Shown here piece after piece: positions 15,520 through 40,687 of a stretch of DNA of 55,172 bases (position 1 is the first letter of the stretch; the number at the start of each line of letters is the position of its first letter). A model generated the notes under the pieces. It saw nothing but the letters and a program-made list of their open reading frames with translations, made no database searches and was not told where the DNA came from. The DNA is taken from the NCBI GenBank assembly GCA_003697105.1, contig RFFQ01000170.1, positions 1 through 55,172 of the forward strand, in the 5' to 3' direction. A program made the position numbers and the translations under genes. The stretch comes from Gemmatimonadota bacterium (GTDB lineage Bacteria > 4572-55 > J002).

Positions 15520-15548
15520 TTGACATCCTCTTCACATTTTGGTAATAT
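15520..15548 (+). promoter_or_regulatory. sigma-70-type promoter of the pseudokinase gene
   Basis: TTGACA (15520-15525), a 17-nt spacer and TAATAT (15543-15548), about 55 nt before the expected leader end and 62 nt before the GTG start at 15610. Confidence 0.8.
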
Positions 15549-15609: not shown

Positions 15610-18600
15610 GTGAAAACTATCGGCAAATATGAAATTGTGGAAGAACTGGACAAAGGAGATGTCGGGACATACTATCGAGTGCAGGATTTGGTTAATGAAA
15701 CATCATTTTTAATTCAGGAATTATACCCCAAACATGCCAACGATGATAATTTTGTCCGTCGCTTCCAACGAGCAGTAAAAGCCTCAGAATTTCTGCAACA
15801 TGATAATATTCTGAATACATTTGAATTTGGAAAATCAGAAACTTCAGTGTTCAATGTTTCGGACTACCACGACGGGTTAACCGTAAGCAAACTGTTGGCA
15901 CGTGTCAAGAAAATCCCGCTGGAAGTCAGTTGTGAGATTATCATCCAAAGTTGCCAAGGCTTGAAAAAAGCGCATCAGGAGAACATTATCCACCGGAACT
16001 TAAAACCCAATTTTATTTTGGTCGGCCGGGATGGCATTGTGCGCATTTCTGATTTTGGCCTAGCCTACAACGATGAAAAACTCGGGTCCATTCATTTGGT
16101 ACCCGCCCAGATTGGCACGGCGCATTATTTATCCAGTGAATTAGCTCTGGGGATGAAGCTGGATCAGCGGGCAGATATTTTCTCCTTGGGAATCATCTTT
16201 TATGAGATGTTGACCGGAGTGAATCCTTTTGCGGCAGAGACGTTTGCCGCTACGTTTACCAAGCTGAAATCCGAGGAACCGCCGGAAGCATTGATGAACC
16301 TCAACCCGGAGCTTCCAGAACGGATAAATACCATCGTCCAAAAGATGCTCAAGAAAAACCGCAATGACCGGTATAAAACATGCGATGATGTTCTGGATGA
16401 TCTGGCGTCATTCCTAAAATCGGTGGCGTTGCCCAGCGGCAAAGAACTACTAATACAATACATGCAAAGTCCAGAAAGCTATGCTCCAACACCGATTCCT
16501 GCAGAAAAACCACCTATCGTGGCGCCACCACCCTCTACTCCGGTAGAAACACCGGTTACCAGCGAAGAGACCGCTTTTTTTGAAGTTGATGTTCCCGCAT
16601 CGCCGCCCGTACAACCTGTCACTCCAGCAGATGAGAGCTTTGATCTGGATTTGGATATGACACCGGATGTGCCGGTAACCAGCCCCCCACCCGCCGAACC
16701 GGTAGCTTCTACCGCTAACGATTTTTTAGACTTAGATACGCCCGCCGCACCGGCACCACCGGTGGAGACGGTATCTTCCAGTGCGGATGATGATTTTCTG
16801 GATTTGGATATTCCAGCCCCAACACCCGCCCCGCCGGTAGCGGATCAGGTCGATGGGGGCACCCAACCCGTCTCATCCAGTACCGACGATGATTTTTTGG
16901 ATTTAGATATTCCGACAGCGGTCACAACACCGGAACCCACGCCTGCTTCCACCACAGATGATGACTTTCTGGATTTAGATACACCTCCGCCAGCCTCTGA
17001 AACCCCGGGGACACCTCCTGAACCCGCCACTCTCGACGATGATTTTTTAGATTTGGATGCACCCGCACCGGAAATTACACCCGCATCACCACCCCAACAA
17101 GAAGAAGAAACCTCCTTTTTTGACGTTGGTGCACCACCGGCCGCACCCGCTTCTGAACCGGCAGGGGTTGAAACGCCTGATACGGCTGAAGATGATGCCT
17201 TTTTCAATACGGTTGAAGGTCCACCAGAGCAGGTGACTCCCGAAGAAGTCGATGAAACCGCCGTATTTGAAAATCCACTCTTCCAAACCGGGGAACCGGT
17301 AGCAGCAAAACAACCACCCAGTGATACATCTGACGATCTGATTTTTACGGAAAAAACGGATGAGATCGAACTTACAGCGGGGGTCACTGCTAGTGAAGAA
17401 ACCTCCATTTTATCCGATGTTGATCTGGCAAGTGAGTTCAAAGAACCCACTCCCGTAGAGGCACCCAGCGCCCGCTCCGAAGAACCCCCCATGCCACCAC
17501 CAGAGCCATTGGACGAAGATTTACAATTCACGGATTTTAACGAAGATGTCGAAATTTTAGAGGACATCCCTGAGCTGGAAGATACAAAAGTCATCGAACC
17601 GGTACCTCAAACCGCCAAAGCGGAGCCGAAACCAAAACCAGAGCCAAAACCAGAGCCTCCCAAACCAAAAGCGGAAACACCAAAACCGAAACCGAAACCA
17701 GCACCTCCCAAACCAAAAGCGGAAACACCAAAACCGAAACCGAAACCGGCACCTCCCAAACCAAAAGCGGAAACACCAAAACCGTCCGAACCCGAACCCA
17801 AAGCGGTAAAACCCCACCCCTCGTCGCCAGTCGATGAAAAGTGGGTAAAATACCTGGTGTGGGCGGCAGGTCTCCTGATTCTCATCAATGCCGGTCTCTT
17901 TTTCGGACTTCGGAACCCGCAGGAAGCCGTGCTACTGGTGGAAAGTACCCCGGACAATGCCAAAGTCGCCGTTAATGGAATTGTGCGGGCATCTCAAACT
18001 CCAGCCATTATACGAGCGTTGAAACCCGGCGAGCATTTGATCGAATTGACAAATGGTGATCTGGTGTTTCAGCATACCGTCACCCTCGAAGGTGGAAAAA
18101 AATACCGGCTCGTCGCCACGTTGTATGACCCCTCGCTATTGGAAGAGATGGAAGAACCGGCATCCACGCCAACGGTCATCGCCGAAGAGAGCGAAAATTT
18201 ACGGCAAGTTAAAATATTATCGGAACCTTCGGGAGCGTACATTTATATCAATGGTGAGCCGGCAGGCACCTCACCCAGCACAGTAAATTTACCTTTGGGT
18301 ACCGTTGAAGTCAAACTGATCGCCGTGGGATATGAAGATTACGTGACCGAAATCGGGCATACCGAGACGCCTCAAGAACTTAAAATTACGCTCACGCCCA
18401 TAGAACAACCGGCAGAGGTTGTGGCGGAAACCCCCACCACACCGGACCAGCCCGAAGAAACAACCTTTTCCACAACGATTTCTACGAATCCACCGGGCGC
18501 AACGGTGTATGTCCAAGGGAAAGCATACGATCAAAAAACCCCACTGTCCTTGGAGCTACCTACCGGAGATTATCCGGTACGGATCGAAATCGAAGGATAT

Positions 18601-19110
18601 AAACCGGTCACCAAAAACATCTATCCGGGTTTAGGGGAGTTGACGGTGAATTTGGAAGCAGAGACACCTCGTTTAGCCACCGCTCCGGAAACACCCGCAC
18701 CGGAACAACCGGTAAGCCGTCCCCCGTTATTGGCATCTGCGAGTATCAACGGCAATATGGGGCGAAGCGGCGCCCAGAAGATCGATCTCACAAAACCCAG
18801 CACCCAATTAACCGCGCTACCAACATCCTACCGGCGGGGAGTTAAACTTCTAGGGTCAACCGCACAACTACCCGCCGAATTAACCCAATACGCCGAATTA
18901 CGGGTCGCTATTGACACCGTAACAGATATTTATATCAACGGGCACTATCAAGCGAGTACGCCACTAAGCAAACGTATCAAACTGGCACCGGGGGATCACA
19001 TCATCCGAATCGTGGACCCGCAAGGGATTTATCGCGATTATGTGAAAAAGGTCAGTGTGAACGTCGGGGATCAAATCTCGATCTCTACCTCAGACTTGAA
19101 ACACCGGTAA
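15610..19110 (+). CDS. Ser/Thr kinase-like protein (predicted pseudokinase) with transmembrane segment and PEGA repeats
   Basis: 1166 residues, GTG start with GAGGTGG upstream. Residues 7-265 form a PknB-like fold, but catalytic residues are lost. The VAIK Lys is Gln36, HRD reads HRN (Asn130), the catalytic-loop Asn is Phe135, and the helix-C Glu appears replaced; DFG (148-150) remains. About 290-690 is a Pro/acidic linker with six copies of a motif like DDDFLDLD(I/T)P, then a PKPKPE tract (683-725). One transmembrane helix lies at about 745-767. At least three PEGA domains follow (about 775-1000) and a fourth at the C-terminus (about 1100-1160). The kinase fold is cytoplasmic and the PEGA part extracytoplasmic, perhaps wall- or envelope-binding. 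Terminator at 19141 closes the gene. Confidence 0.88.
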   Translation: MKTIGKYEIVEELDKGDVGTYYRVQDLVNETSFLIQELYPKHANDDNFVRRFQRAVKASEFLQHDNILNTFEFGKSETSVFNVSDYHDGLTVSKLLARVKKIPLEVSCEIIIQSCQGLKKAHQENIIHRNLKPNFILVGRDGIVRISDFGLAYNDEKLGSIHLVPAQIGTAHYLSSELALGMKLDQRADIFSLGIIFYEMLTGVNPFAAETFAATFTKLKSEEPPEALMNLNPELPERINTIVQKMLKKNRNDRYKTCDDVLDDLASFLKSVALPSGKELLIQYMQSPESYAPTPIPAEKPPIVAPPPSTPVETPVTSEETAFFEVDVPASPPVQPVTPADESFDLDLDMTPDVPVTSPPPAEPVASTANDFLDLDTPAAPAPPVETVSSSADDDFLDLDIPAPTPAPPVADQVDGGTQPVSSSTDDDFLDLDIPTAVTTPEPTPASTTDDDFLDLDTPPPASETPGTPPEPATLDDDFLDLDAPAPEITPASPPQQEEETSFFDVGAPPAAPASEPAGVETPDTAEDDAFFNTVEGPPEQVTPEEVDETAVFENPLFQTGEPVAAKQPPSDTSDDLIFTEKTDEIELTAGVTASEETSILSDVDLASEFKEPTPVEAPSARSEEPPMPPPEPLDEDLQFTDFNEDVEILEDIPELEDTKVIEPVPQTAKAEPKPKPEPKPEPPKPKAETPKPKPKPAPPKPKAETPKPKPKPAPPKPKAETPKPSEPEPKAVKPHPSSPVDEKWVKYLVWAAGLLILINAGLFFGLRNPQEAVLLVESTPDNAKVAVNGIVRASQTPAIIRALKPGEHLIELTNGDLVFQHTVTLEGGKKYRLVATLYDPSLLEEMEEPASTPTVIAEESENLRQVKILSEPSGAYIYINGEPAGTSPSTVNLPLGTVEVKLIAVGYEDYVTEIGHTETPQELKITLTPIEQPAEVVAETPTTPDQPEETTFSTTISTNPPGATVYVQGKAYDQKTPLSLELPTGDYPVRIEIEGYKPVTKNIYPGLGELTVNLEAETPRLATAPETPAPEQPVSRPPLLASASINGNMGRSGAQKIDLTKPSTQLTALPTSYRRGVKLLGSTAQLPAELTQYAELRVAIDTVTDIYINGHYQASTPLSKRIKLAPGDHIIRIVDPQGIYRDYVKKVSVNVGDQISISTSDLKHR
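17656..17785 (+). repeat. 48-nt in-gene tandem repeat (PKPKAETPKPKPKPAP)
   Basis: CCTCCCAAACC starts at 17656, 17704 and 17752, giving a 48-nt period and about 2.7 near-identical copies. Each codes 16 residues of the Pro/Lys linker just before the transmembrane helix. Such tracts change length easily by slippage without shifting frame. Confidence 0.9.
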
Positions 19111-19140
19111 CATGGAACATCTCGCCGGTAAGGGAGGATG

Positions 19141-19176
19141 GCGACATCGAGTTAAACATCTCGATGTCGCTTTTTT
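19141..19176 (+). terminator. strong intrinsic terminator after the pseudokinase gene
   Basis: GCGACATCGAG (19141-19151) pairs perfectly over 11 nt with CTCGATGTCGC (19160-19170) and is followed by six T. Confidence 0.93.
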
Positions 19177-19221
19177 CGCAAAAATCACCCTTACGACCTC
19201 AACACAGAAATAGGTAGCACT

Positions 19222-20922
19222 ATGGCTCTTCTTATTTATACCGATGAACACGGAAAGGAACACCAAGTCCCTATCGAACGTTCAAAACTGTTGATAGGAC
19301 GCAGCAAAGATAATGATTTAGCGTTGCTTGATATTTACGTTTCACGCTATCATGCAAAAATTACCGTGGAGAGTGATCGATATTACATAGAGGATTGCGG
19401 AAGTACCTATGGCACGTATGTCAACGGTACACAGGAAAAACGGGTATTGTTGGAATATGGAGATGAAATTAAAGTCGGTGAAACCGTACTCCATTTTGTT
19501 AGCGATGAGGTGGAACAGACAAATGAACAATTGGCACAATTGGTCAATAAGCAAAACGCCGGTCAGGCAATGAAGGCATTTAACCAAATCGAACACGAAT
19601 TTGATGATATTCGGGATCAACTCCAAGCCGTTCGTGACTCAAAAGCAGTAGATGTGACCACACTTTTGGAACGCGTCGATCATCTCGGTCAAACGATTGC
19701 CGAAATTCATACTAATTTGGCGGAACTGGAAAAGGCAAGTCAAATCAACGCCACCTTGTACGAAGTGGGCAAAATGATCAATACCGTCTTCGAGTTGAAC
19801 CGCTTGCTCAATCTGGTAATGGATTTAGCTCTGAAAGTGATGAATGCGGAACGAGGGTTTATCATGTTGATCGATCAAGAGACCGGCGAACTGCGAACGG
19901 AAGTTGCCCGCAACATGGATCCCGAAGATGATCAAAGCCTGCTCCAATCCGAATCTTCTGGAACATCCATCAGTCAGGGTATAGCAACCCAAGTGATCGA
20001 AACCGGTGAGCCGATTCTAACAACAGATGCCTCCAATGACCCGCGTTTTATGCGTCAGGCAAGTGTCATTATGTATAACATCCACTCCGTGATCTGTGTC
20101 CCGTTGCGCTCTAAAGAGCAAGAGATCATTGGTGTGATTTACGTGGATAATCGTATTTCCAAAGGCTATTTCACCCAAGATGATTTGGATTTTCTGATGG
20201 CGTTTACCAATCAAGCCGCGTTAGCGATTGAAAATGCCCAGTTGTACAACAGTATTCAGGAACAAGAGCGCATCCGGGAGAATTTACAGCGCTATCTACC
20301 GGCAGAATTGGCAAATCAAATGATGAATCAGGGACAGATTCAATTGGGCGGAGAAGAATGTTTTGTTTCGATTTTGTTCTCGGATATTCAAGGTTTTACC
20401 TCCCGAGCCGAAAAAATGCCGGCAGGGGAAGTGGTGCAAATGCTAAACGCTTATTTTAGTCTCATGACCGACGAAATTTTTAAGCAGGAGGGCACTCTCG
20501 ATAAATTTATGGGGGATGGTATTATGACCATCTTCGGGGCACCCATCCCGCATGAAGATCATGCGCTACGGGCAATTAAAGCCGCTATTGGGATGCGAGA
20601 ACGCCTTAAAGAATTGAACGCGGAGTGGGCTAAAGAAGGCAAAGAACCGCTGGTAATCCGAATTGGAATTGCCAGTGGAACGGTGGTTGCTGGTAACATC
20701 GGTTCGGAACGCCGCATGGATTATACCGCCATTGGAGATGCCGTCAATTTGGCATCCCGATTGGAAAGCGCGGCTTCTGGAGGACAAATTTTGATTGATG
20801 ATATGACCTATGAACTCGCCGCCGGAGTCATTAAAGCCAACCGCTTAGTCCCCATCCGTGTCAAAGGCAAAAGTCGTCCTATTCAGGTATATGAAGTTGT
20901 GGGTCTGGAAACCGATGTGTAA
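19222..20922 (+). CDS. FHA-GAF-class III adenylate/guanylate cyclase
   Basis: 566 residues. An FHA domain (about 5-95; LLIGRSKDNDLALLD, 'VSRYHAKI') binds phosphothreonine peptides. A helical linker follows, then a GAF domain (about 180-345). The C-terminal class III nucleotide cyclase (about 375-560) has both metal aspartates in place (FSDIQGFTSR and FMGDGIMTIFGAP), the substrate lysine in 'LDKFMGDG', and 'DYTAIGDAVNLASRLE' with the transition-state Asn and Arg. It is probably active, most likely making cAMP; base specificity cannot be fixed by eye. It is soluble. It follows a kinase-like protein that seems unable to phosphorylate, so the FHA ligand probably comes from elsewhere. It overlaps the next gene by 8 nt. 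Confidence 0.92.
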   Translation: MALLIYTDEHGKEHQVPIERSKLLIGRSKDNDLALLDIYVSRYHAKITVESDRYYIEDCGSTYGTYVNGTQEKRVLLEYGDEIKVGETVLHFVSDEVEQTNEQLAQLVNKQNAGQAMKAFNQIEHEFDDIRDQLQAVRDSKAVDVTTLLERVDHLGQTIAEIHTNLAELEKASQINATLYEVGKMINTVFELNRLLNLVMDLALKVMNAERGFIMLIDQETGELRTEVARNMDPEDDQSLLQSESSGTSISQGIATQVIETGEPILTTDASNDPRFMRQASVIMYNIHSVICVPLRSKEQEIIGVIYVDNRISKGYFTQDDLDFLMAFTNQAALAIENAQLYNSIQEQERIRENLQRYLPAELANQMMNQGQIQLGGEECFVSILFSDIQGFTSRAEKMPAGEVVQMLNAYFSLMTDEIFKQEGTLDKFMGDGIMTIFGAPIPHEDHALRAIKAAIGMRERLKELNAEWAKEGKEPLVIRIGIASGTVVAGNIGSERRMDYTAIGDAVNLASRLESAASGGQILIDDMTYELAAGVIKANRLVPIRVKGKSRPIQVYEVVGLETDV

Positions 20923-22654: not shown

Positions 22655-23911
22655 CTATTCTCCCATTTCATTGAAAGTACTATCCATGACATCAATGACA
22701 GTGCGGCGATTCTTCCGACGGTTTTCTTCACTGGTATTGGGCACCAACGGTTCAGATTCACCTTTCCCAATAACAATCATGCGTTCTTGGGAAATATTGA
22801 AATTCCGCGAAAGGTAATCTGCTACCGCTTGTGCTCGTCTTTCAGATAATTTCTGATTATATTCTGCACTTCCCAAATCACAGGTATGTCCAGTAATACG
22901 GATGGGACTGTTCGGGTGGTTTTGCAGCGCCATACCTACTTCATTTAACAGGGCTTGCGCCTCTGGTTTTAAGTCAGCTTTGTTTAGGTCAAACATCACT
23001 TTGTCGGAAAGTTCAAAGGTTTCCAGCGGGATATTGCTGGGGCGCATGGGGACATATACATCTTCCGGTTCAAGCAAAATCGATAAGATCGCCAAACTAT
23101 CAGACTCAAACCGAATCCGTCGTGATTGCAAGATGTAACCTTCTTTTTCCGCGGTCACATCATGGATATGGGCAAGGTCTATTTTGATGGTCACCGGACT
23201 CGCTCCAACGTATGTTTGTCCAAGATAGACCTCAGCCGGGGAGGGGTCGGTTTGAATCAACACCGAGGGACGGGTATCGGTTTGAGTTTGGGTACAATCG
23301 CCATCCAAAATACCGTCGGGATCCGCAAAATCTGCTTCTAACCGCCGGGTAGTGTTCGCATGGAGTTGTGCTTTTTGCCGATACTCTTGTTTTAGGCGCG
23401 GGTCACTTTCGTTTTCGAGCAACCGGCAATAGGTCAGAGCCAAATAATAAAATCCTTCCGCCCGGTCGGGGCTGAGTTCAATTGCCCGGAGCAGGGTCTG
23501 TTCGGCATGGGAAAGCATATTTTTTTTGAGGTATGTTCGCCCCAACCCAATGTATGCCGGTCCGAAAAACGGGTCATAATCAATAGCCATCAAAAATTCC
23601 TGCTGGGCTTTGTCCAGTAGCCCCACCGAAAGATACCGCTCACCATCGATCAAATTACCTTCAGTATCCCCATATCCGGTAAACCACGTTTGCCGGATGG
23701 CTTCCACGTCTTTTCCAGAGGTAGAACGTCGCTTGGGATCATATTGTACTTCACCCTCTTTAGCATCGCCGTTCTGCACACCCCGTGCAAACACATCAAA
23801 CTCGTTTTGGGGGGGCTGATAGGTCTCGCGGGGTTTACCGGCGCAACTGGCAACCAGCAAAACAACCCCCAACAGGGTAAAAAAGCGCCCCCATAAAATA
23901 TTTTTTCTCAT
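22655..23911 (-). CDS. OmpA-family lipoprotein with TPR and PEGA domains
   Basis: 418 residues. The signal ends at LLVASC, a lipobox. TPR repeats occupy about 90-165 (EFLMAIDYDPFFGPAYIGLG). A PEGA domain spans about 215-280 (VLIQTDPSPAEVYLGQTYVG). The C-terminal OmpA domain (about 295-415) has the peptidoglycan-binding pattern: FDLNKADLKPEAQALLNEVG, 'ITGHTCDLGSAEYN' and 'LSERRAQAVADYL'. It would tie the outer membrane to the wall, as Pal does. Upstream lies a strong promoter (23964-23992) and, divergently, a candidate small RNA. GTGGAGG precedes the ATG. Confidence 0.9.
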   Translation of the reverse strand: MRKNILWGRFFTLLGVVLLVASCAGKPRETYQPPQNEFDVFARGVQNGDAKEGEVQYDPKRRSTSGKDVEAIRQTWFTGYGDTEGNLIDGERYLSVGLLDKAQQEFLMAIDYDPFFGPAYIGLGRTYLKKNMLSHAEQTLLRAIELSPDRAEGFYYLALTYCRLLENESDPRLKQEYRQKAQLHANTTRRLEADFADPDGILDGDCTQTQTDTRPSVLIQTDPSPAEVYLGQTYVGASPVTIKIDLAHIHDVTAEKEGYILQSRRIRFESDSLAILSILLEPEDVYVPMRPSNIPLETFELSDKVMFDLNKADLKPEAQALLNEVGMALQNHPNSPIRITGHTCDLGSAEYNQKLSERRAQAVADYLSRNFNISQERMIVIGKGESEPLVPNTSEENRRKNRRTVIDVMDSTFNEMGE

Positions 23912-37784: not shown

Positions 37785-38479
37785 GAGTGGGAAAAGCTTT
37801 TCATGTACTTTGTGGCGTCCGGTCCCGTATTGAAAATCAGGTCAATAATACTGACCTCATGGGCAAACGGCGGATACAACTGGGGATATTCAGGGTAACC
37901 GGAATAATCCATCCATTCTAACTGTATGTTCTCCGAACGAAATACTTCCTCGGATAGATAGGCTTTAGCGGCGGGTCCCGAGAGATAACTTGTCGCGTTG
38001 ACTTTTTTGAGTAGTTCAATGACACGTTCGGCTTTTTTGTGGGTTAAAGCATAATTTTCGGAGTTATCAAATTCAGTCGTGATCCCCAATATATGGTGGC
38101 TGATAAATTTAATAAAAGTTTGATTTAATTCGGATAATCTCCGCCACGTCTGCCCCCAATAAAAATCTTTGATGACCGGTGCGTACTGTTTGAAAAAGGG
38201 TGCTTTGGAATAATTCGCTTCAATAATATTCCAATGTTTGCGTTGCCATGAAGAATCCCGCAACTCAACTTCATTGATCAACCGGTGTTCATCCGTACCA
38301 CACGGGATTGACAACCATTTTAGCCCTTGGGGAGTTTTTATTCGATTCCGATTGCGCCAATCCAGCTTTGTATATTGGAGGTCATCATGAAAAATAAAGA
38401 GATCGACCTGATTAATAATGTCAAAATATCCTTTCCACGGGATATAATTGGACTGGAGAATTGCCACTTTTTTACCCAT
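37781..38479 (-). CDS. WbqC family protein
   Basis: 232 residues. Signature 'AILQSNYIPWKGYFDIINQ' at the start and 'DLFIFHDDLQYTKLDWRNRN', both characteristic of the family. WbqC-like proteins are found in O-antigen and other surface-sugar loci, but their reaction is not settled. Soluble. It starts 9 nt after the STT3-like gene and overlaps the GT2 gene by 4 nt. Confidence 0.93.
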   Translation of the reverse strand: MGKKVAILQSNYIPWKGYFDIINQVDLFIFHDDLQYTKLDWRNRNRIKTPQGLKWLSIPCGTDEHRLINEVELRDSSWQRKHWNIIEANYSKAPFFKQYAPVIKDFYWGQTWRRLSELNQTFIKFISHHILGITTEFDNSENYALTHKKAERVIELLKKVNATSYLSGPAAKAYLSEEVFRSENIQLEWMDYSGYPEYPQLYPPFAHEVSIIDLIFNTGPDATKYMKSFSHS

Positions 38480-38488
38480 CAGTTCATC

Positions 38489-40687
38489 TCATCTCAAATC
38501 AAATTGCAAAAAGCCGGCATTCTGAATCATCTCTTCCGTGACTTCAAACGTAACGGTGTCCTGTTCGGTGGTGACCGTGTACGGACCCGCCGTTGTAATA
38601 TCAGACATATTCACTGACAAATCAACCGTCGCATAGGGAACAACCGTTTGAACGATGCCGGTACTATCAGCAACCAGATGTTGTTGATATTCATAATGAC
38701 TACCGGTATTTGTCGTTAAGGGAGCAGTTAGTTTTAAGGATGCCTCCGGTAGCGTGTGGAATACCAGTTTGGCACCCGGCACCCGCTCATAAACTAAATA
38801 AGCCACATAAGAACCGGTGACTACCTCATTTGTCATCAAGTATGAACTTTCAAACACAAGCCGAAAATGCGATAAACCTTGCAATTGGTCTTTATCCAAA
38901 AGATACTGATGCCCTTTCATTTCCCCTAACGCGGTACCCATTGTTCGATAAAAGCGATCATAAAGCTCAAATTGAACATACCCTTCTTCGCTTTCATCAC
39001 TATCAAAATAATCCTGCTGCAGACGACCTTCTTTTTCCAAAGACTCAAAAACCCGGTAGGAATAAAAGAAGGAACCGGGTACCATCACATACCGAACATT
39101 TAAATCTTGGCATAACTGGTATGCTTCAGATTCATCTTCGGAAAGCAAAAAGGTATGGTATGCTCGATTACCGGCACTTTCCATCCGCATGTTGCTACCG
39201 GTAGTCGGTCGGTGCGCATGAAAAATAATGGAAAACCCATCGTTATAATGGGTCAAAATACCATATTCCGGGACATGCTCGGAAGTATAATAGCAACAGG
39301 TTGGGGGAGTATGCTCTTTTAGCCACGCTCCAACTTCATTAATGGCTTCGTAATGTGCGGGTTTAAAGATAATTTTGATGGAATAATAGCCCATAGCCAG
39401 AATCGATACAAACCCAATCAGGAAAAAAATCGCTACCCGAGACCGTATCCGGTCGGTACTATCTAGTTCCTGATATATATCCCAGAGTTTCACCATCACA
39501 AACGCCAGCAATAGAGCTAAAACCAGCGAAAACCCCTCGGCAAACCGGAACCCTTGGATGGCTAACGCACCAAATAAGATGCTCCAGATACAGAACAATA
39601 ACACGAGTTTTCGGTTATTCAGTTGGTAAAAAAGAAAACCCAATATAAACGGTAAAGAAACAACACTATATGAAAAATGCTGGAAAAACTCATCGGCACT
39701 CAGGTTTTCAAATTCTAAAATGGAAGTACCCGCCACAAAGTTAGCCCCCCCCATCACGGACTCAAGCACCTGACTCATAAATAGAATGACAACACCGATC
39801 AACATCACGTTAATGATAATCAGATTAGCGGGACGAACCTGTAGATATAAGCGATAGAGGAATAACGCCAGAAAGGTATAAAAAAACAGCAAAAAATGAA
39901 GACCCGAAAGCTGGTTAAAAATAAAGCGATCCAAATGGACAGACGTATCCAAAAGATAATAGGGTAAGATACTTACGCATGTGATAAAAAATCCCAGAGC
40001 CATAAACGACGTGAACGCTTTATGCTCCTTAAAAAAGAAAAAATACAGATAGATAAAAATCAAAAAAATGGTGAGAAAAACAACAATAAAGGTAAAGTTT
40101 AGTAAGGCAAGCGTAAGTGATATACCGAAAACAACCGCCCACCGGATGGCTTTCCACTCACTTTGAATCCCTTTTACCATTGACAAAACAAGACTCATAT
40201 AAAAGATGGCTTCAATACAGTGATGATCGGGGCGTCCAAATAACACGTATGCCAAATGGGGGGAAAAGAACATGAATAAAACTGCCGCCCAAAATCCGGT
40301 GCGGCGGTCCGCAATCGTTTTTCCGAGGTAATATAGTAACCAAATGGAAAAAATATTCATTAATGGAGGTACAACCGCTGCCGCCCATTCAAACTTTTCA
40401 CCAACGGGGTCTCCTAAGGTCAACAGAAAGGTGAGGCCGGCAAGTAAATAACTAAAAAGATGTTGCCGCATCGGCAACCCTTCGGGATAGTTATTATAGA
40501 AATCCAACGGCGCAATATACCCTTGATGCAGGATCATCTGGGCATGCCTCATATGATAATACCCATCAAATCCATAAAAGGTTAAAACGCCATTTTGGAC
40601 AAGGATTACATAATAGAGAGCGGGTAAGAAGAAAGCAAGAAGAGCTAAAAGAAGGTAAACAACTGGTTCCGTCCGATCATTAGCCAT
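38489..40687 (-). CDS. STT3/AglB-like oligosaccharyltransferase, divergent
   Basis: 732 residues: about 12 membrane helices (to about 455) then a globular extracytoplasmic domain. The first catalytic motif is FYGFDGYYHMRHAQMI (Asp41). The second is FGRPDHHCIEAIF (about 152), matching the 'G-x-x-D-H-H-x-x-E' STT3/AglB pattern. The soluble-domain WWDYG signature that holds the acceptor Ser/Thr is not present; 'VPEYGILTHYNDGF' is in the same place. It would move a lipid-linked glycan to protein asparagine. It lies 23 nt after a pilin-like gene. Such enzymes are rare in bacteria outside epsilon-proteobacteria and some deltaproteobacteria and candidate phyla. A GT-C enzyme with another acceptor remains possible. 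Confidence 0.85.
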   Translation of the reverse strand: MANDRTEPVVYLLLALLAFFLPALYYVILVQNGVLTFYGFDGYYHMRHAQMILHQGYIAPLDFYNNYPEGLPMRQHLFSYLLAGLTFLLTLGDPVGEKFEWAAAVVPPLMNIFSIWLLYYLGKTIADRRTGFWAAVLFMFFSPHLAYVLFGRPDHHCIEAIFYMSLVLSMVKGIQSEWKAIRWAVVFGISLTLALLNFTFIVVFLTIFLIFIYLYFFFFKEHKAFTSFMALGFFITCVSILPYYLLDTSVHLDRFIFNQLSGLHFLLFFYTFLALFLYRLYLQVRPANLIIINVMLIGVVILFMSQVLESVMGGANFVAGTSILEFENLSADEFFQHFSYSVVSLPFILGFLFYQLNNRKLVLLFCIWSILFGALAIQGFRFAEGFSLVLALLLAFVMVKLWDIYQELDSTDRIRSRVAIFFLIGFVSILAMGYYSIKIIFKPAHYEAINEVGAWLKEHTPPTCCYYTSEHVPEYGILTHYNDGFSIIFHAHRPTTGSNMRMESAGNRAYHTFLLSEDESEAYQLCQDLNVRYVMVPGSFFYSYRVFESLEKEGRLQQDYFDSDESEEGYVQFELYDRFYRTMGTALGEMKGHQYLLDKDQLQGLSHFRLVFESSYLMTNEVVTGSYVAYLVYERVPGAKLVFHTLPEASLKLTAPLTTNTGSHYEYQQHLVADSTGIVQTVVPYATVDLSVNMSDITTAGPYTVTTEQDTVTFEVTEEMIQNAGFLQFDLR

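Follow-up and report, generated by a model that had tools for sequence, protein, structure and literature searches.

To our knowledge, roles have been established for only a small number of bacterial pseudokinases. A kinase-like domain is counted as a pseudokinase when at least one of the VAIK Lys, the HRD Asp and the DFG Asp is replaced, and the bacterial families described in a review are ActPs1-3, GLW, CP1, DYD and DLHK (PMC12599244). In MviN of Mycobacterium tuberculosis, an ActPs3 protein, the pseudokinase tail recruits the FHA domain of FhaA once it has been phosphorylated by PknB (PMC12599244). Among solved structures, those closest by sequence and fold to the domain reported here are the PASTA kinases PknB and Stk1, which differ from it in being active and in having canonical residues.

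We analyzed a stretch of 55,172 nucleotides from a Gemmatimonadota bacterium (contig RFFQ01000170.1; the whole stretch is called the window) and found one gene that encodes a predicted pseudokinase domain, a long linker, a transmembrane segment and PEGA repeats (Table 1). Its frame is uninterrupted from the GTG at 15610 to the stop at 19110 (1166 aa), in keeping with the first-pass annotation, which had described a frame intact over 3.5 kb, and a Shine-Dalgarno-like GAGGTGG lies just 5' of the GTG. The upstream promoter match is one of a set of sigma-70-like matches that, across the region, are overall not above chance, and no RNA family was found in the window at the gathering threshold. On the minus strand, an ORF of 249 aa (16845-17594) runs over the repetitive linker and is probably not a gene.

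Table 1. Features of the predicted pseudokinase gene and its surroundings (positions in the window)
Feature	Coordinates	Strand	Remarks
Sigma-70-like promoter match TTGACA-17-TAATAT	15520..15548	+	10/12 matches; upstream of the pseudokinase gene
Pseudokinase-linker-TM-PEGA gene (predicted)	15610..19110	+	One open frame, GTG start, 1166 aa
Predicted pseudokinase domain, aa 1-277	15610..16440	+	K36Q, E55A, D130N, N135F, G14D, V21Y, M84S, T162H, P176S
Post-kinase helix and motif GKELLIQYMQSPESYAPT, aa 277-294	16438..16491	+	Counterparts in PEGA-kinase relatives, e.g. EALSRYISAPLSYVP
Acidic Pro/Thr-rich linker, aa about 295-660	16492..17590	+	Five DFLDLD motifs
Lys/Pro-rich juxtamembrane stretch, aa about 660-747	17587..17852	+	48-bp tandem repeat at 17631-17784
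Single transmembrane segment, aa 749-767	17854..17910	+	Top hydropathy window
Four PEGA repeats	17929..19086	+	17929-18123, 18205-18396, 18475-18654, 18925-19086
Intrinsic-terminator-like hairpin and T run	19140..19177	+	12 pairs; intergenic fold z -4.5; between pseudokinase and cyclase genes
FHA-GAF-class III adenylate cyclase, 566 aa, candidate partner	19222..20922	+	Next gene after the pseudokinase

Pfam matches the protein to Pkinase at aa 7-256 (E 5e-34) and to PEGA (E 8e-37), and a genome-wide scan counts four PEGA copies in this gene. Because hydropathy gives a single transmembrane segment, the kinase fold probably lies inside, and the PEGA repeats outside, the cytoplasmic membrane. This arrangement of an N-terminal PknB-like domain, a transmembrane segment and C-terminal PEGA repeats is that of PEGA-domain transmembrane kinases, whereas PknB and Stk1 have PASTA instead of PEGA outside. 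A second PEGA protein, with TPR, PEGA and OmpA domains, is encoded close by (22655-23911, minus strand).

We found four replacements in the active site by both HMM and MAFFT alignments: K36Q (codon CAG), E55A in helix C (GCA), D130N in the HRD motif (AAC) and N135F in the catalytic loop (TTT). The first-pass annotation had called the changes of Lys, Asp and Asn as we find them, had considered the helix-C Glu apparently lost (the position is Ala55) and had noted the retained DFG. Kept residues include the DFG motif (148-150) with D148, the HRD His and Arg, Lys132, Asp189 and Arg254. Further changes, beyond those first noticed, are G14D (the first Gly of the Gly-rich loop), V21Y, M84S, T162H (activation loop) and P176S (the Pro of APE).

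The K, E, D and N at the four lost columns are kept in 65 of 65 relatives (alignment A1). Among 143 non-redundant kinase domains, a set collected by similarity to the window domain and so not drawn at random from kinases, the window protein alone lacks the VAIK Lys and alone loses all four residues; 10 other domains of the set lose at least one of Glu, HRD Asp, Asn and DFG Asp. Where a column is at least 90% conserved among the relatives, changes were found in 7 of 10 ATP/catalytic columns vs 4 of 27 other core columns (Fisher p=0.0026, with p=0.007 and 0.017 at cut-offs of 85% and 95%), the assignment of columns as ATP/catalytic being our own choice. The genome has 18 kinases over the Pfam cut-off, and all except the window protein retain both the Lys and the HRD Asp. 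In other phyla, some kinase-like domains (L039, L042, L057 and L086) have the HRD Asp replaced by Asn with the VAIK Lys kept, apparently through separate losses.

AlphaFold2 predicts a confident kinase fold with an intact N-lobe (mean pLDDT 91.9, pTM 0.91), and the best PDB match of the predicted fold is PknB (TMt 0.89); structure prediction had been proposed as a check in the first-pass annotation, and it bears out the call. The alternative alignment that the same annotation had named as a threat to the call is not supported: the nearest Lys, K41, is past beta3, and both alignments (HMM and MAFFT), like the predicted structure, put Q36 and N130 at the catalytic positions. Since the predicted beta3 strand (32-38) contains Q36, no other register is suggested. 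We also rejected compensation of the WNK type, with no obvious substitute Lys, a Gly at position 19 and R23 (beta2) at a position where canonical relatives also have Lys. Sequencing error is unlikely, since the frame is clean apart from these sites and four independent non-synonymous errors would be required, one of which, N135F, takes two base changes.

By the definition above, K36Q and D130N qualify the domain as a pseudokinase, with D148 kept. Hence, on sequence, the proposal of a predicted pseudokinase with PEGA repeats holds: none of the four residues (Lys, Glu, Asp and Asn) remains, and the fold and DFG are kept. We regard the prediction as real and well supported; the window protein is of an ordinary kind but unusual in its combination of losses. 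Its kinase activity is probably absent, and the suggestion in the first-pass annotation that the domain probably binds and does not phosphorylate is reasonable.

Compared by the review descriptions (PMC12599244), the window protein fits none of ActPs1-3, GLW, CP1, DYD and DLHK, because the DFG is kept while the Lys and HRD Asp are lost and because a transmembrane segment and PEGA are present. ActPs1 proteins have substitutions in all three catalytic residues, whereas the DFG Asp is kept here. ActPs2 proteins share the change of HRD Asp to Asn and a transmembrane segment C-terminal to the domain, but they have Arg for the beta3 Lys, lack the DFG through a deletion and carry large insertions (PMC12599244), none of which is found in the window protein, where the Lys is changed to Gln and the DFG is kept. 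In ActPs3, all three motifs are degraded and the activation loop has a deletion; here, the DFG is intact and the activation segment is not shortened. The DYD family also misses the helix-C Glu but has Arg for the Lys and DYD for DFG, where the window protein has Gln and DFG. DLHK proteins keep the HRD Asp, have degraded ATP and DFG motifs and lack a transmembrane segment, whereas the window protein has lost the HRD Asp, kept the DFG and has a transmembrane segment. CP1 is linked to COG3899 and has no transmembrane segment, whereas PEGA and a transmembrane segment are present here, and GLW has GLW for HRD where the window protein has HRN.

MviN with FhaA is the closest functional precedent, and we based a scaffold model on it. 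Both MviN and the window protein are membrane proteins in which a degraded PknB-like domain is followed by a transmembrane region. However, the HRD and DFG of MviN are degraded and its activation loop is shortened (PMC12599244), whereas the DFG and activation segment are kept in the window protein; moreover, the MviN domain lies within a peptidoglycan-synthesis protein (PMC12599244), whereas the window protein has PEGA outside and a cyclase as its FHA candidate. An FHA partner is known for MviN (FhaA) and only suggested for the window protein.

Relatives with the kinase-TM-PEGA layout were found in G059, G008, G267 and G130 (L002, L008, L139 and L141). They share the kinase, the post-kinase Y-[IM]-x-x-P motif, the transmembrane segment and the PEGA repeats with the window protein and are 30-38% identical to it over the kinase domain, but all keep the K, E, HRD Asp and Asn that are replaced in the window protein, and their linkers are shorter. 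In the tree, the window domain is nested in a 14-row clade with these canonical PEGA kinases (97/93), nearest to L002 and L008 (a grouping with only 93/72), on a long branch (1.24). Since relatives that share the layout have canonical residues, catalysis was probably lost in the window lineage, and we rejected a pseudokinase state of the whole family. Hence, the predicted pseudokinase state is lineage-specific and apparently derived from an active family of PEGA-domain Ser/Thr kinases, and the window protein is, as its sequence places it, a catalytically degraded offshoot of the PEGA-domain transmembrane kinases. The first-pass annotation had held that canonical relatives would mean a recent loss and tell against its call; such relatives exist and make the loss lineage-specific, and the call itself stands. 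No close relative of the window protein was found in 386 genomes, which include only two of the organism's class, or in a GTDB scan that requires exact 8-residue matches. A literature search on PEGA kinases, judged by title and abstract, gave nothing relevant. ORFs in L163, L021, L022 and L028 carry two kinase domains in tandem.

The linker has a net charge of -83 over aa 300-660 and contains 15 T-x-x-[DE] sites, which we counted, together with the five DFLDLD motifs, for the scaffold reading given below; because the linker is acidic and Thr-rich, such sites are expected by composition, which counts against that reading. Over all pairs of the five DFLDLD cores, we found 22 codon differences, every one synonymous, and the flanks have mostly non-synonymous changes. 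The zero non-synonymous change in the cores arises by construction, since they were picked for identical protein sequence; the divergence of their synonymous codons indicates that they are not fresh duplicates. We rejected DFLDLD as a docking motif common to other proteins of the genome, since its exact form occurs nowhere else in it.

In the neighboring protein, the FHA domain is most similar to GarA/OdhI, with its GR, SRxH and N motifs preserved, and the cyclase domain is most similar to solved adenylate cyclases, with its metal-binding and substrate motifs preserved. The terminator-like hairpin between the genes argues against an operon, so the pseudokinase and the cyclase probably form separate transcription units. 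Three other FHA proteins in the genome also count against the cyclase as partner. Among 19 loci with homologues of the cyclase protein, a kinase gene is adjacent in five (L200, L201 with a 724-base gap, L206, L209 and L213), which has a probability of about 1e-6 if 1% is expected, a rough estimate of ours, and <3e-5 at 2%. All five of these kinases keep canonical residues. Hence, pairing of a kinase with a cyclase needs no pseudokinase. In L200 (4354-8437) and L209 (5963-10386), a TPR-rich N-terminal region (judged by eye) and the kinase gene overlap or abut the GAF-cyclase gene.

Four PEGA-kinase relatives lie near a GAF-sigma54 activator. Its GAF shares 35-49% identity with that of the window, so that the GAF domain near the kinase belongs to a sigma54 activator in the relatives and to a cyclase in the window. 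The activator gene adjoins the kinase gene in L164 and L167; in L165 and L166 it is two ORFs away, and at both loci one of the intervening genes encodes a CarboxypepD_reg protein. We found no literature that treats FHA, GAF, cyclase, kinase and pseudokinase jointly.

In the reading we favor, with confidence a little better than even, the window protein is a membrane scaffold or allosteric switch whose linker is phosphorylated by another kinase and recruits an FHA protein. Phosphotransfer would have been lost when the residues that anchor ATP (Lys), catalyze the transfer (Asp) and bind Mg (Asn) were replaced together with the Glu of helix C, and the kinase fold would be retained inside. One or more of the 17 other kinases of the genome would phosphorylate Thr in the acidic linker, an FHA-domain protein would dock there, with the FHA-GAF-adenylate cyclase next door as the prime candidate, and the docked cyclase would couple the state of the envelope to cAMP synthesis. 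The pseudokinase would then be a docking platform that relays a cell-envelope signal to other signaling proteins, a role known for a few bacterial pseudokinases. This reading builds on what the sequence shows directly, namely which residues are lost, the predicted fold, the domain order and the neighboring genes; also counted for it are the kinase genes found near GAF-sigma54 activators and near homologous cyclases. By analogy to MviN, a scaffold role is likely; the phospho-Thr/FHA step and the cyclase as partner are speculative, and the FHA step is weakened because the two genes are probably transcribed separately and because the kinases adjoining homologous cyclases are canonical. It is unlikely that the protein represents an undescribed type of pseudokinase, in which a PEGA envelope sensor without phosphotransfer serves as a phosphorylatable platform controlling a cAMP-producing FHA-GAF cyclase; if it does, Ser/Thr kinase cascades would be joined to a second-messenger output via a docking platform. 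With an active ancestor family, defined lost residues and a candidate partner with an enzymatic read-out (cAMP), the scaffold role is directly testable.

The pseudokinase domain could instead pair with one of the cell's active kinases and activate or restrain it, with no FHA recruitment. The intact fold, including the N-lobe, with PknB as the closest fold, is consistent with such pairing, as are the 17 other kinases over the Pfam cut-off and the back-to-back dimers that MviN and other bacterial kinases are reported to form (PMC12599244); however, we recognized no kinase gene adjoining the pseudokinase gene, and the long acidic linker and the neighboring FHA protein would be left unexplained, which makes this alternative doubtful. 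Residual or atypical activity, with nucleotide bound via the DFG Asp and weak phosphotransfer or another ATP-dependent reaction, is quite improbable: the Lys, Glu, Asp and Asn are lost together, a bulky Phe occupies position 135, an Asp stands at the first Gly of the Gly-rich loop and there is no obvious substitute Lys, although Asp148 and the catalytic-loop Lys132 are kept and some pseudokinases, SelO and SidJ, have alternative activities (PMC12599244).

Neutral decay of an unneeded kinase, with the open frame as an accident of recency, would agree with the long branch (1.24) and with the lack of a close relative in the genomes searched. We consider it highly improbable, since the frame is open over 3.5 kb, 23 of 27 non-catalytic core columns are kept, and the DFLDLD motifs are kept while their synonymous codons have diverged (the zero non-synonymous change being partly due to the choice of motif).

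Elsewhere in the window, a gene for a protein of 731 aa (38489-40687, minus strand) matches the model of archaeosortase-associated STT3 oligosaccharyltransferases (E 3e-69), but its 234 bits fall short of the family cut-off of 450. This STT3-like gene lies in a stretch of lower G+C content (0.414 at 38001-40000).
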